DNA of 64,000 nucleotides from Brachyspira suanatina (lineage in GTDB: Bacteria > Spirochaetota > Brachyspiria > Brachyspirales > Brachyspiraceae), in assembly GCF_001049755.1 (NCBI RefSeq), contig NZ_CVLB01000002.1, forward strand, positions 171,743 through 235,742, read 5' to 3'. Positions 19,003 to 39,970 of the stretch are shown here, in pieces. Within the stretch, counting starts at the first letter, position 1. Every line of letters begins with the position of its first letter. The notes beneath the pieces are model-generated. The model made no database searches, was not told the DNA's origin, and was given only the letters and a program-made list of their open reading frames with translations. A program made the translations under genes and the position numbers.

Positions 19003-19935
19003 CTATGCTATATGAGCATTAAGCCAAGCAATTATCTCTTTAGCTACATCATCTCTTTGAACATCATTAAGTATTTCATGTCTTCCATTTTCATAAAGAC
19101 TTATAGTAACATCTTTAAATCCTAATGACTCATACATTTCATGAACCCATTTAACTCCCTTTCCCATATCTCCTACAGGGTCTTTCGCTCCTGATATTAA
19201 AAGTATAGGGAAATTTTTATCCATAGAAGAATAATTATCCTTATTTGAAATTTTATCAATAAGTTCAAATAATTGAATGTAAGTTTCTATACTTGCAGGC
19301 TTATTTGCAAAGTATTCATCTTCCTGAGCTTTTTTAATTTCTTCTTTATCTGAAGTAAGCCATGCTAAATCTGAATTATCTTTAGGGAAGAATTTTTTAC
19401 CGTATCCGCCAACTGATAATTTGTCAAGTAAATAAGCTCTTTTTCTTCCGCCGAATAATGACTTCTGAATATTAGCTATAGTTTTTCCTAAGTTTTCTAT
19501 TCCTTTAGGTTTTCCTCTGGTACCCATTATTATAGCACCATTTAAATCTTTATGATATTTAATTAAAAAACCTCTAGTAAGAAAAGAACCCATACTATGA
19601 CCCATCATAAAATAAGGAAGATTAGGATAATCAGCTTTAGTATTTACCATCAAATGCTTCATATCTTCTATAATAAGTTCATGTCCGTTTTTATCAGCCA
19701 TATGCCCTATTTGATCTTTACTTACAGTGCTTCTTCCAAATCCTCTATGATCATCAGCACAAACTAAAAATCCTTCTTTATTAAGTTTTTCAGCAATCTC
19801 TTTATATCTTCCAGCATGCTCTCCAAGTCCATGAACTATTTGCACTATTGCTTTAGGATTAGAATCAGGCTTAAAAATATACGTATACATTCTATGACCA
19901 TCATCTGATATTAAAACTCTATTAAGCATTTCCAT
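19003..19935 (-). CDS. Alpha/beta hydrolase, monoacylglycerol lipase / lysophospholipase-like
   Basis: 310-residue serine hydrolase. Oxyanion region VHGLGEHAGRY (about 34-44), nucleophile elbow GHSMGS (near 112), acid in ISGAKDPVGD and His in ENGRHEIL near the C-terminus complete the triad. Overall layout matches the monoglyceride-lipase group (Hydrolase_4). It likely releases fatty acid from monoacylglycerol or lysophospholipid in the cytoplasm; there is no signal peptide. SD CGGAG lies 7 nt before the ATG. Monocistronic with its own terminator. Confidence 0.9.
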   Translation of the reverse strand: MEMLNRVLISDDGHRMYTYIFKPDSNPKAIVQIVHGLGEHAGRYKEIAEKLNKEGFLVCADDHRGFGRSTVSKDQIGHMADKNGHELIIEDMKHLMVNTKADYPNLPYFMMGHSMGSFLTRGFLIKYHKDLNGAIIMGTRGKPKGIENLGKTIANIQKSLFGGRKRAYLLDKLSVGGYGKKFFPKDNSDLAWLTSDKEEIKKAQEDEYFANKPASIETYIQLFELIDKISNKDNYSSMDKNFPILLISGAKDPVGDMGKGVKWVHEMYESLGFKDVTISLYENGRHEILNDVQRDDVAKEIIAWLNAHIA

Positions 19936-29808: not shown

Positions 29809-29841
29809 AAGTAGTATCATTATTATGCGGAGGTAAACACC

Positions 29842-30813
29842 ATAGATAGTAAAATTTTGAATTTCTTTGACAATATAACTGAAGAGGAACGTGAAATTTT
29901 ATCTGGAAAAAAGAGTTTTAAAAAACAGCTGTATACTGATGACAATGATTTTATATGCGTAGATGTAAATAAATTCTTAAAGAAAGGGAATTTAATCACA
30001 ATAAGACCACATACAAGATTTATAGATATACCGGAACACAATCATACATATATAGAAGTTATTTATGTTCTTAAAGGAAATATTATACATATAATAGATA
30101 ATGAAGAAATAACCTTAAATAAGGGAGATCTGCTATTTTTAAATTTTAATATCTCTCATAAAATAAAAGCCTGCAATAAAAATGATGTTGCCATAAACTT
30201 TATAATAAAAAAAGATTTTTTCAATGATGTATTATCTATGTTAGATGAAAATAACTATATAAAAGATTTTATAATAAATTTATCTAAAAGTGATAATACT
30301 AAAAGACAATTTTTACTATTTAATACATTCGGAATACTTCCAATAGAAAATATAATCGAAAATTTAATATACTCTATAATAACAAACCGATCTTTAGATG
30401 AAGTTAATATTAATAAAAAACTTATTGGCATATTATTTATGTATTTATACAATTATACTTTTCTTCTAGAAAAAAATTTTGTATTAGATGATGAATATAC
30501 TATATCAAAATATATAGAAAATTACATAGAAACAGAGTATAAAACAGCCAAATTATCAGAATTAGCCAAACAGCTTAATAGCAATATATTTCAGATAAGC
30601 AGATTCATAAAATCTAAATTTGGTCAAACTTTTAAAGAAATGCTGCAAAATAAAAAATTTGAGGTAGCCTCAAAACTTTTAATAGAAACTAATCTGTCCA
30701 TTTCAGATATTATAAGTAATATAGGCTATGAAAATAACAGCTACTTTCATAAGAGATTCAAACAAATATTTACACTCTCTCCTGCAGAGTACAGAAAAAG
30801 ATATAAAAAATAG
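29842..30813 (+). CDS. AraC-family regulator of the rhamnose cluster
   Basis: Transcription factor with an N-terminal cupin sugar-sensing domain (HNHTYIEVIYVLKGNI to GDLLFLNFNISHKI, about 60-115) and a C-terminal double helix-turn-helix (LSELAKQLNSNIFQISRFIK, then YENNSYFHKRFKQIF, SPAEYRKR). Divergent from rhaB and upstream of the ABC importer, so it probably activates both in response to a sugar. The start is odd. A perfect GGAGG (29829-29833) points to ATA at 29842. The first conventional in-frame codon is TTG 29857, 23 nt from the SD and with none of its own. Confidence 0.9.
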   Translation: MDSKILNFFDNITEEEREILSGKKSFKKQLYTDDNDFICVDVNKFLKKGNLITIRPHTRFIDIPEHNHTYIEVIYVLKGNIIHIIDNEEITLNKGDLLFLNFNISHKIKACNKNDVAINFIIKKDFFNDVLSMLDENNYIKDFIINLSKSDNTKRQFLLFNTFGILPIENIIENLIYSIITNRSLDEVNINKKLIGILFMYLYNYTFLLEKNFVLDDEYTISKYIENYIETEYKTAKLSELAKQLNSNIFQISRFIKSKFGQTFKEMLQNKKFEVASKLLIETNLSISDIISNIGYENNSYFHKRFKQIFTLSPAEYRKRYKK

Positions 30814-38034: not shown

Positions 38035-38730
38035 TCAATTTTGTCCATAATAAGCATTTGCACCATGTTTTCTGAAATAGTGCTTATTAAGTAAATACTG
38101 TTCTACAGATTTGATTTCAGGATTTATCTGTATAGTTCTATATGCCATTTTAGCAAGCTCTTCCATAACAACAGCATTATGAACTGCTTCTTTAGCATCT
38201 TTACCCCAAGCAAAAGGACCATGAGAAGCTATTATGATACCAGGTATGTCCATAGGATTAATGTTTCTCTTTTTTAGAGTTTCTATAATAACAAGCCCAG
38301 TATTTTTTTCATATTCTCCTTCTATTTCCTCTTTAGTTAAAGGTCTTGCACAAGGTATATCACCATAAAAATAATCTGCATGTGTTGTACCAAATGCAGG
38401 TATATCTTTTCTAGCTTGTGCCCAACTTGTAGCATAGCTTGAATGAGTATGTACTATTCCGCCTATTTCAGGAAATGCTTTATATAACTCTATATGTGTA
38501 GCTGTATCAGAAGAAGGCTTATATTTTCCTTCCAATTTATTTCCTTCCAAATCTAAAACTACCATATCTTCAGCTTTCATTACATCATAATCAACACCGC
38601 TAGGCTTAATAGCAAATGTTTTAGATTCTCTGTCTAAACCGCTTACATTTCCCCAAGTATATATTACAAGTTCTTTTTTAACGAGTTCAAGATTCTCTTC
38701 AAATACTATTTTTTTTAATTCTTCAAGCAT
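38035..38730 (-). CDS. ulaF: L-ribulose-5-phosphate 4-epimerase
   Basis: 231-residue class II aldolase-fold epimerase producing D-xylulose-5-P, which enters the pentose phosphate pathway. Visible: [29 protein letters not shown] and the zinc site [15 protein letters not shown], plus [26 protein letters not shown] is 13 nt upstream, rather far. It starts 4 bp after ulaE ends. Could equally be named araD; context favours UlaF. Confidence 0.94.
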
Positions 38731-38733
38731 GAT

Positions 38734-39591
38734 TTAACAAAATCCTCCCTCTTTCATTTTTTCTAATACCCATTTTTTTTCTTTCATCACATGTTCTTTA
38801 GGATTATCTGATTTTTCAGACCACATCTCTATCATAAAAGTTCCATTATAATTAAGTTCTTTTAATAATTTGAAACATTTAACAAAATCAACACAGCCCT
38901 CTCCAAAAGGTACCTCTTTGAATTTTCCTTCAAAACCTTCTTTAGGAGCTAGAGTATCTTTAATATGTATTGCAGTAATTTTATGAATTCCTTTTCTTAT
39001 TTCATCTTCAACATCATTTCCCCAAGCTGTTAAATTTCCTAGATCAGGATAAACTGTAAGCCAAGGACTGTTACAAATTCTGTCATATTCTAAAAACTTA
39101 GTGATAGAGTTTAAAAAAGGAGTATCCATAATTTCTATAGCAAGCATTACCTGATATTTAGCAGCCATTTCAAGAGATTTTTTTAATCCTTCTATAAATA
39201 ATTGCTTTGTCTCTTCATCGCCTTTTTCATAATAAACATCATAACCAGCTAATTGTATTATTCTTATACCTATATCGCTTGCAAATATAATAGCTTTTTC
39301 CATAAGCTCCATAGCTTTTTTTCTGGTATCAGGATTCTTACTTCCCATAGGAAATCTTCTATGTCCGCTAAAACACATAGTAGGTATTTTTATACCAGTT
39401 TCAAATATAGATTTTACTAATGATTCTCTTTCTTCTTTAGTCCAATCTAATCTTGAAAGTCTTTCATCTGTTTCATCTATTGATATTTCAACAAAATCAA
39501 AACCTAACTCTTTAGCATCCAATAATTTCTGATGCCAAGAAGTACTTTTTTCCAATGCTTTTTCATATATTCCAAATAAATTATTGATAAT
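38734..39591 (-). CDS. ulaE: L-xylulose-5-phosphate 3-epimerase
   Basis: TIM-barrel epimerase; from NNLFGIYEKAL onward it matches UlaE (FDFVEISIDETDERLSRLDW, MCFSGHRRFPMGS, IQLAGYDVYYE, AIEIMDTPFLNS, MIEMWSE). The start is unusual. An ATG 20 codons upstream (39651) would translate through a hairpin and poly-T, giving an unrelated leader. The only strong SD, GGAGGG (39596-39601), sits 5 nt before ATT (39589-39591) and 8 nt before ATC. No ATG, GTG or TTG is available in frame in that window, so initiation at AUU or AUC is inferred. Confidence 0.88.
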   Translation of the reverse strand: MINNLFGIYEKALEKSTSWHQKLLDAKELGFDFVEISIDETDERLSRLDWTKEERESLVKSIFETGIKIPTMCFSGHRRFPMGSKNPDTRKKAMELMEKAIIFASDIGIRIIQLAGYDVYYEKGDEETKQLFIEGLKKSLEMAAKYQVMLAIEIMDTPFLNSITKFLEYDRICNSPWLTVYPDLGNLTAWGNDVEDEIRKGIHKITAIHIKDTLAPKEGFEGKFKEVPFGEGCVDFVKCFKLLKELNYNGTFMIEMWSEKSDNPKEHVMKEKKWVLEKMKEGGFC

Positions 39592-39610
39592 AGCACCCTC
39601 CAATATAATT

Positions 39611-39648
39611 AAAAAAATAGGGAAATAATTAATTAATAAATATTTCCC
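39611..39648 (-). terminator. Hairpin plus T run inside the ula operon
   Basis: GGGAAATA (39620-39627) pairs with TATTTCCC (39641-39648). On the minus strand it is followed by TATTTTTTT, then the ulaE SD. It fits a partial intrinsic terminator between ulaB and ulaE. Confidence 0.65.
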
Positions 39649-39661
39649 CATTCAAAAATTA

Positions 39662-39970
39662 TCACTTACTTTTCAAATCTTCTAAATATCCGGATTCATT
39701 AAGTTTTTGTTTAAACTCCGGTTCTGATAGAACATTTTTAATTCCAATAACTCTTACGCCTTTTTCAATTGATTCTTTAAACATATCAATAAAATTCAAA
39801 GGACAAAATACCAAGTCATAATTAACAGCTGTACTCTTACCTTCAGATAAAGCACAATGGTGAACATTTGCTCCATTAATGCCTAATGACTTAAGAGCTT
39901 TTTCAGCAGTCATTTTCATCATTAAACTAGTACCAGATCCATTGGCACAAGAAACTAAAACTTTTAGCAT
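39662..39970 (-). CDS. ulaB: PTS ascorbate-type EIIB component
   Basis: 102-residue phosphocarrier. The phospho-cysteine loop VSCANGSGTS (Cys8) opens the protein, the mark of the ascorbate/galactitol EIIB group. It receives phosphate from EIIA (UlaC) and passes it to the sugar through EIIC (UlaA). SD AAGGAG. 27 bp after ulaA. Confidence 0.93.
   Translation of the reverse strand: MLKVLVSCANGSGTSLMMKMTAEKALKSLGINGANVHHCALSEGKSTAVNYDLVFCPLNFIDMFKESIEKGVRVIGIKNVLSEPEFKQKLNESGYLEDLKSK

Follow-up and report, generated by a model that had tools for sequence, protein, structure and literature searches.

A conserved AUH codon as the probable translation start of ulaE in Brachyspira

Translation of pcnB, an Escherichia coli gene other than infC, is reportedly limited by its AUU start codon, a further precedent for an AUH start (AUA, AUC or AUU) outside infC, as proposed here for ulaE. 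The infC genes of E. coli (AUU) and Staphylococcus aureus (AUA) also start with AUH codons, which are subject to discrimination by IF3 (PMC5472188, PMC13009471). In S. aureus, AUU (cvfC1) and AUA (ccpN, citZ, infC) starts are reported to have been detected by ribosome profiling, with extended Shine-Dalgarno (SD) sequences at AUH sites; in poor medium, reporter expression for cvfC1, ccpN and citZ was about 10% of that from AUG, and in rich medium the ccpN reporter reached up to 30% (PMC13009471). In Streptomyces, sigR is described as starting at GTC under repression by IF3; this start governs a protein ratio, and databases usually misannotate it (PMC5472188).

Like ulaE, ccpN and cvfC1 are ordinary genes other than infC, with a strong SD and an AUH start conserved between species; unlike ulaE, an enzyme gene of a catabolic operon known here from sequence, they belong to another phylum and their starts are reported as proven by ribosome profiling and reporters (PMC13009471). 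The sigR gene shares with ulaE a conserved non-standard start, but this start is GTC rather than AUH, the product is a sigma factor and the IF3 effect was demonstrated by experiment (PMC5472188). The infC genes of E. coli and S. aureus are autoregulated, unlike ulaE (PMC5472188, PMC13009471). In Brachyspira, no AUH start of infC was seen in the 25 loci found (L090-L114), all of which have ATG (no locus was found in genome G003). Since infC starts with ATG, the setting in Brachyspira is not that of the classical IF3 feedback loop. Judged by title, none of the papers listed in literature searches reports non-canonical starts in Brachyspira or the start codon of ulaE.

The gene studied here lies in a 64,000-nucleotide stretch of the Brachyspira suanatina genome, hereafter the window. 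In profile searches, its product scored 421 bits with TIGR00542, against a cut-off of 272, and the E. coli UlaE structure 3cqh was matched with an E value of 2e-101, the alignment beginning at residue 5 of the protein started at AUC. Both the family profiles and 3cqh align only after the upstream extension discussed below; the original prediction, made from the window sequence, had placed the beginning of UlaE homology at NNLFGIYEKAL. The products of neighbouring genes passed the curated cut-offs for ascorbate-6-phosphate lactonase, ascorbate PTS IIC, 3-dehydro-L-gulonate-6-phosphate decarboxylase and an AraD-type 4-epimerase, and the IIB and IIA matches fell below theirs. By these matches, ulaE is identified as the L-ribulose-5-phosphate 3-epimerase gene of an ascorbate operon on the minus strand. 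The features of the region are as follows.

39662 to 39970, minus strand: ulaB-like PTS IIB gene just upstream of ulaE (NF007586 match with E 1.5e-9, short of the curated cut-off)
39615 to 39653, minus strand: hairpin and U run between ulaB and ulaE (-16.1 kcal/mol, z -4.3, equalled by none of 200 shuffled sequences)
39597 to 39601, minus strand: SD sequence GGAGG, 8 nt before AUC, present in 7 of 7 orthologs
39589 to 39591, minus strand: ATT, alternative start (ATT in six of the seven orthologs; G005 has ACT)
39586 to 39588, minus strand: AUC, proposed ulaE start codon (AT[C/A/T] in 7 of 7 Brachyspira orthologs, aligned with ATG in L021-L024)
38734 to 39588, minus strand: ulaE coding sequence, 284 amino acids, L-ribulose-5-phosphate 3-epimerase (TIGR00542 and NF009689 matches far above curated cut-offs)

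Direct reading of the minus strand gives GGAGGG (39601-39596), TGCT, ATT (39591-39589) and ATC (39588-39586), the last directly preceding AAT AAT TTA TTT GGA, the first codons of N-N-L-F-G-I-Y-E-K-A; the conserved start point of ulaE thus carries no ATG. The same reading bore out two statements of the original prediction, that GGAGGG precedes the ATT-ATC pair, and that an in-frame ATG (39651) lies 20 codons before ATT (21 before ATC), the stretch from this ATG onwards spanning the hairpin and U run. An in-frame TTG is found at 39603, four codons before ATT.

A close ulaE gene (90-100% protein identity) was found in 7 of the 26 genomes of the genus search. Four of the seven were matched through positions and identities to named collection records, labelled Brachyspira catarrhinii (L020), uncultured Brachyspira (L017, L018) and uncultured Spirochaetes (L019). 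Nucleotide identity between the seven orthologs is as low as 81%, and the frame contains no internal stop. The codon before N-N-L is ATC in G000, G025, G023 and G005, ATA in G017 and ATT in G020 and G003; it is never ATG. GGAGG lies 8 nt ahead of this codon in six orthologs and 6 nt ahead in G003. The avoidance of G at the third base is a small sample of seven related species, and is alone no proof of selection against AUG.

In the seven orthologs, the 18 nt upstream are predicted to pair with the 16S tail at -9.3 to -12.8 kcal/mol, a strength reached by only 0.5 to 9% of 612 control genes, even though each control gene was scored at the most favourable of several candidate starts, a bias in the controls' favour. 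The tail used, GGCTGGATCACCTCCT, was found in 22 of the 26 genomes, the exceptions being G003, G021, G022 and G025.

No AUG, GUG or UUG that could serve as ulaE start is conserved across the seven orthologs. In G003, a TAA directly before ATT-ATT (an in-frame stop at -6) eliminates all upstream starts, and in G023 none of the codons ATG, GTG and TTG occurs between an in-frame stop at -42 and the AUH codon. A canonical codon does exist upstream in the other five orthologs but is not conserved. Downstream, the next canonical codon of the orthologs lies 11, 46 or 70 codons in, past GIYEKA.

Initiation at the ATG at 39651 would give a 305-amino-acid protein with a hydrophobic N-terminal extension. 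The frame is open from this codon in G000 and G025, and a GUGAU upstream of it might pair with the 16S tail, the predicted -5.3 kcal/mol being about the control median (-5.6 kcal/mol, n=612). However, this ATG (at -63) is in frame in only these two of the seven orthologs, and missing or out of frame in the other five. Its extension would be translated out of the hairpin and precedes all alignment with UlaE family profiles and with the E. coli structure. In a gapped alignment of five species (an ungapped version was misaligned by indels), codons 2-60 of ulaE show 96 of 138 differences at third positions and no gap differences, whereas the 63 nt upstream of the AUH codon show 8 of 65 differences at third positions and 26 gap differences. 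This substitution pattern and the gap contrast indicate that coding-type evolution begins at the AUH codon. Initiation at 39651 as the source of UlaE is thus highly improbable; a longer form may nevertheless be made from this codon in G000 and G025.

If translation began instead at the TTG at 39603, the SD-like sequence would itself be coding. This TTG is kept in four of the seven orthologs; the same position (-15) is occupied by CTG in two others and by ATT in G003, in which the stop excludes it. No SD pairing is predicted upstream of the -15 codon (-0.3 to +1.3 kcal/mol), and a start there would leave the conserved GGAGG without explanation, which makes this reading extremely improbable.

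Compared with genes outside the genus, the Brachyspira start appears to be the derived state. All 50 non-Brachyspira relatives have an in-frame ATG no more than 12 codons from the Gly of the GIYEKA-type motif, against none of the seven Brachyspira orthologs. In the four nearest relatives (L021 Acetivibrio, L022, L023 and L024 Lucifera), ATG stands exactly at the AUH codon, in the context M-x-N-L-L-G. As ATG is found in all the outside relatives and AUH in Brachyspira, ATG seems to have given way to ATH in the lineage leading to Brachyspira, the polarity of this change being inferred.

Sequence comparison also bears on the choice between the two adjacent Ile codons, both of which the original prediction had retained as candidates. 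SD spacing does not discriminate between them in the window, since 8 nt (ATC) and 5 nt (ATT) are both found at canonical GGAGG-led starts, and the first codon reads ATT in six of the seven orthologs. However, G005 reads ACT-ATC at the two codons, the gap between GGAGG and the first of them is only 3 nt in G003, and the ATG of the four nearest relatives aligns with the second. For these three reasons, AUC (39588-39586) is likely to be the start in preference to AUU (39591-39589), and initiation at AUU is very unlikely; ATT is probably untranslated leader just ahead of the start. The predicted non-canonical start was upheld, with AUH and GGAGG in seven of seven species, and narrowed to AUC.

We also considered that the gene might be decaying, or might have lost its ATG through mutation or sequencing error, with poor synthesis from an internal TTG or ATG. 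The next in-frame canonical codon is indeed a TTG 11 codons in for five of the seven orthologs, but in G017 it lies 70 codons in, and an internal start would delete the GIYEKA-type motif, present in all 50 relatives. Moreover, the state is identical in seven species, substitutions are biased towards third positions and internal stops are absent; this reading is barely conceivable. Sequencing error in particular was rejected, as seven assemblies of different species agree. Of the two outcomes named beforehand as contradicting the prediction, the sequencing error is excluded in this way, and a protein starting at 39651 is improbable given an ATG in frame in only 2 of 7 orthologs. In conclusion, comparison of the orthologs indicates that Brachyspira ulaE very probably initiates at the conserved AUH codon, which is AUC (39588-39586) in this genome.

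Six of the seven species, all but G025, were folded, and a strong hairpin ahead of the SD was predicted in five of them, namely in the window and in L003, L005, L018 and L019; that of G020 (L019) has a different sequence, and the hairpin was absent in G003 (L020). The hairpin is terminator-like, and could possibly act as an internal terminator or attenuator between the PTS and enzyme genes. The start-codon argument is independent of how it is read.

The window holds a second AUH start, at an AraC-type regulator gene.

29829 to 29833, plus strand: regulator SD sequence GGAGG, 8 nt before ATA (motif and spacing shared by L071-L073)
29842 to 29844, plus strand: ATA, start codon of the AraC-type regulator and the window's second AUH start (ATA in 3 of 3 orthologs)

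The layout, GGAGG followed by 8 nt, is that of ulaE. Close regulator orthologs were found in G023 and G025 (97%), and both retain GGAGG, the 8-nt spacing and ATA. Predicted pairing of the regulator SD with the 16S tail is -10.7 to -13.2 kcal/mol. In L072 and L073, a TAA stands two codons upstream of ATA, and the TTG found at 29857 in the window reads TTA. The proposal of a second non-standard start in the same sugar block thus held, with ATA kept and the canonical alternatives destroyed.

A search for SD-supported AUH starts, proposed genome-wide, was carried out on the window and 40 further stretches (864 kb, 26.5% of this one genome). The scan required GGAGG, so that AUH starts with a weaker SD would be missed, and used a coding-score cut-off of 8 (the regulator at 29842 scores 11.5). 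Among the 682 usable open frames of the 864 kb, GGAGG occurs close to the 5' end at 70 sites, of which 42 have a canonical start at 4-11 nt, 16 have no start of either kind and 12 have AUH only. Nine of these 12 were judged internal, mostly Gly-Gly stretches within coding sequence; of the other three, one is found beside the araD-like gene's ATG, and the remaining two belong to ulaE and the regulator. GGAGG-led AUH starts are therefore rare in the sampled part and not general (2 against 42 canonical). The occurrence of both in one 64-kb window of the 864 kb is not significant, because the window was chosen for them. A start-independent scan for coding signal before the first canonical start returned 19 open frames, most of which resemble broken frames or edge effects.

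Three sites seen along the way are recorded here. In the araD-like gene (38730-38748, minus strand), ATG lies 13 nt after GGAGG, an unusually long spacing, and an ATC stands immediately before it, at 10 nt. In L130 (minus strand, 5261-5243), an open frame with coding signal, about 107 codons long, lacks a canonical start in the first 46 codons and contains an ATA after GAGGT; it could represent part of a gene or a further AUH start. In L140 (minus strand, near 19293), an open frame begins just after an in-frame TGA, in the context GGATGCGGC-TGA-GGACCT, the TGA being either a selenocysteine codon or the mark of a broken frame.

As to mechanism, we suppose that the strong SD helix would hold the 30S subunit at the ulaE AUH codon, where fMet-tRNA would pair with AU and be mismatched at the third base, and that IF3 would discriminate against this codon. 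By analogy with the reporters described above, UlaE output might be a fraction of the AUG rate, and the non-AUG start probably keeps UlaE production low. The epimerase would then be scarce relative to the other ula proteins, possibly in a growth- or IF3-dependent manner, and the upstream hairpin may, in addition, attenuate transcription between the PTS and the enzyme genes. A broader proposal, in our judgement doubtful, is that AUH starts with very strong SDs form a conserved translational brake on selected genes of sugar use in Brachyspira (ulaE and, at 29842, the AraC-type regulator, along with others yet to be found), whose output would respond to IF3 or initiation capacity; infC, which has AUG, would be without AUH autoregulation.

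The AUH start of ulaE is well supported by comparative sequence evidence and would join the known precedents infC, pcnB, ccpN, cvfC1 and sigR. Gene finders limited to ATG, GTG and TTG would misplace the ulaE start in the Brachyspira species that carry the gene. An AUC, AUA or AUU start conserved within a genus in a metabolic enzyme would be a spirochaete addition to the few documented AUH starts, and ulaE offers an easy test of whether genes other than infC are subject to conserved translational braking through AUH starts.
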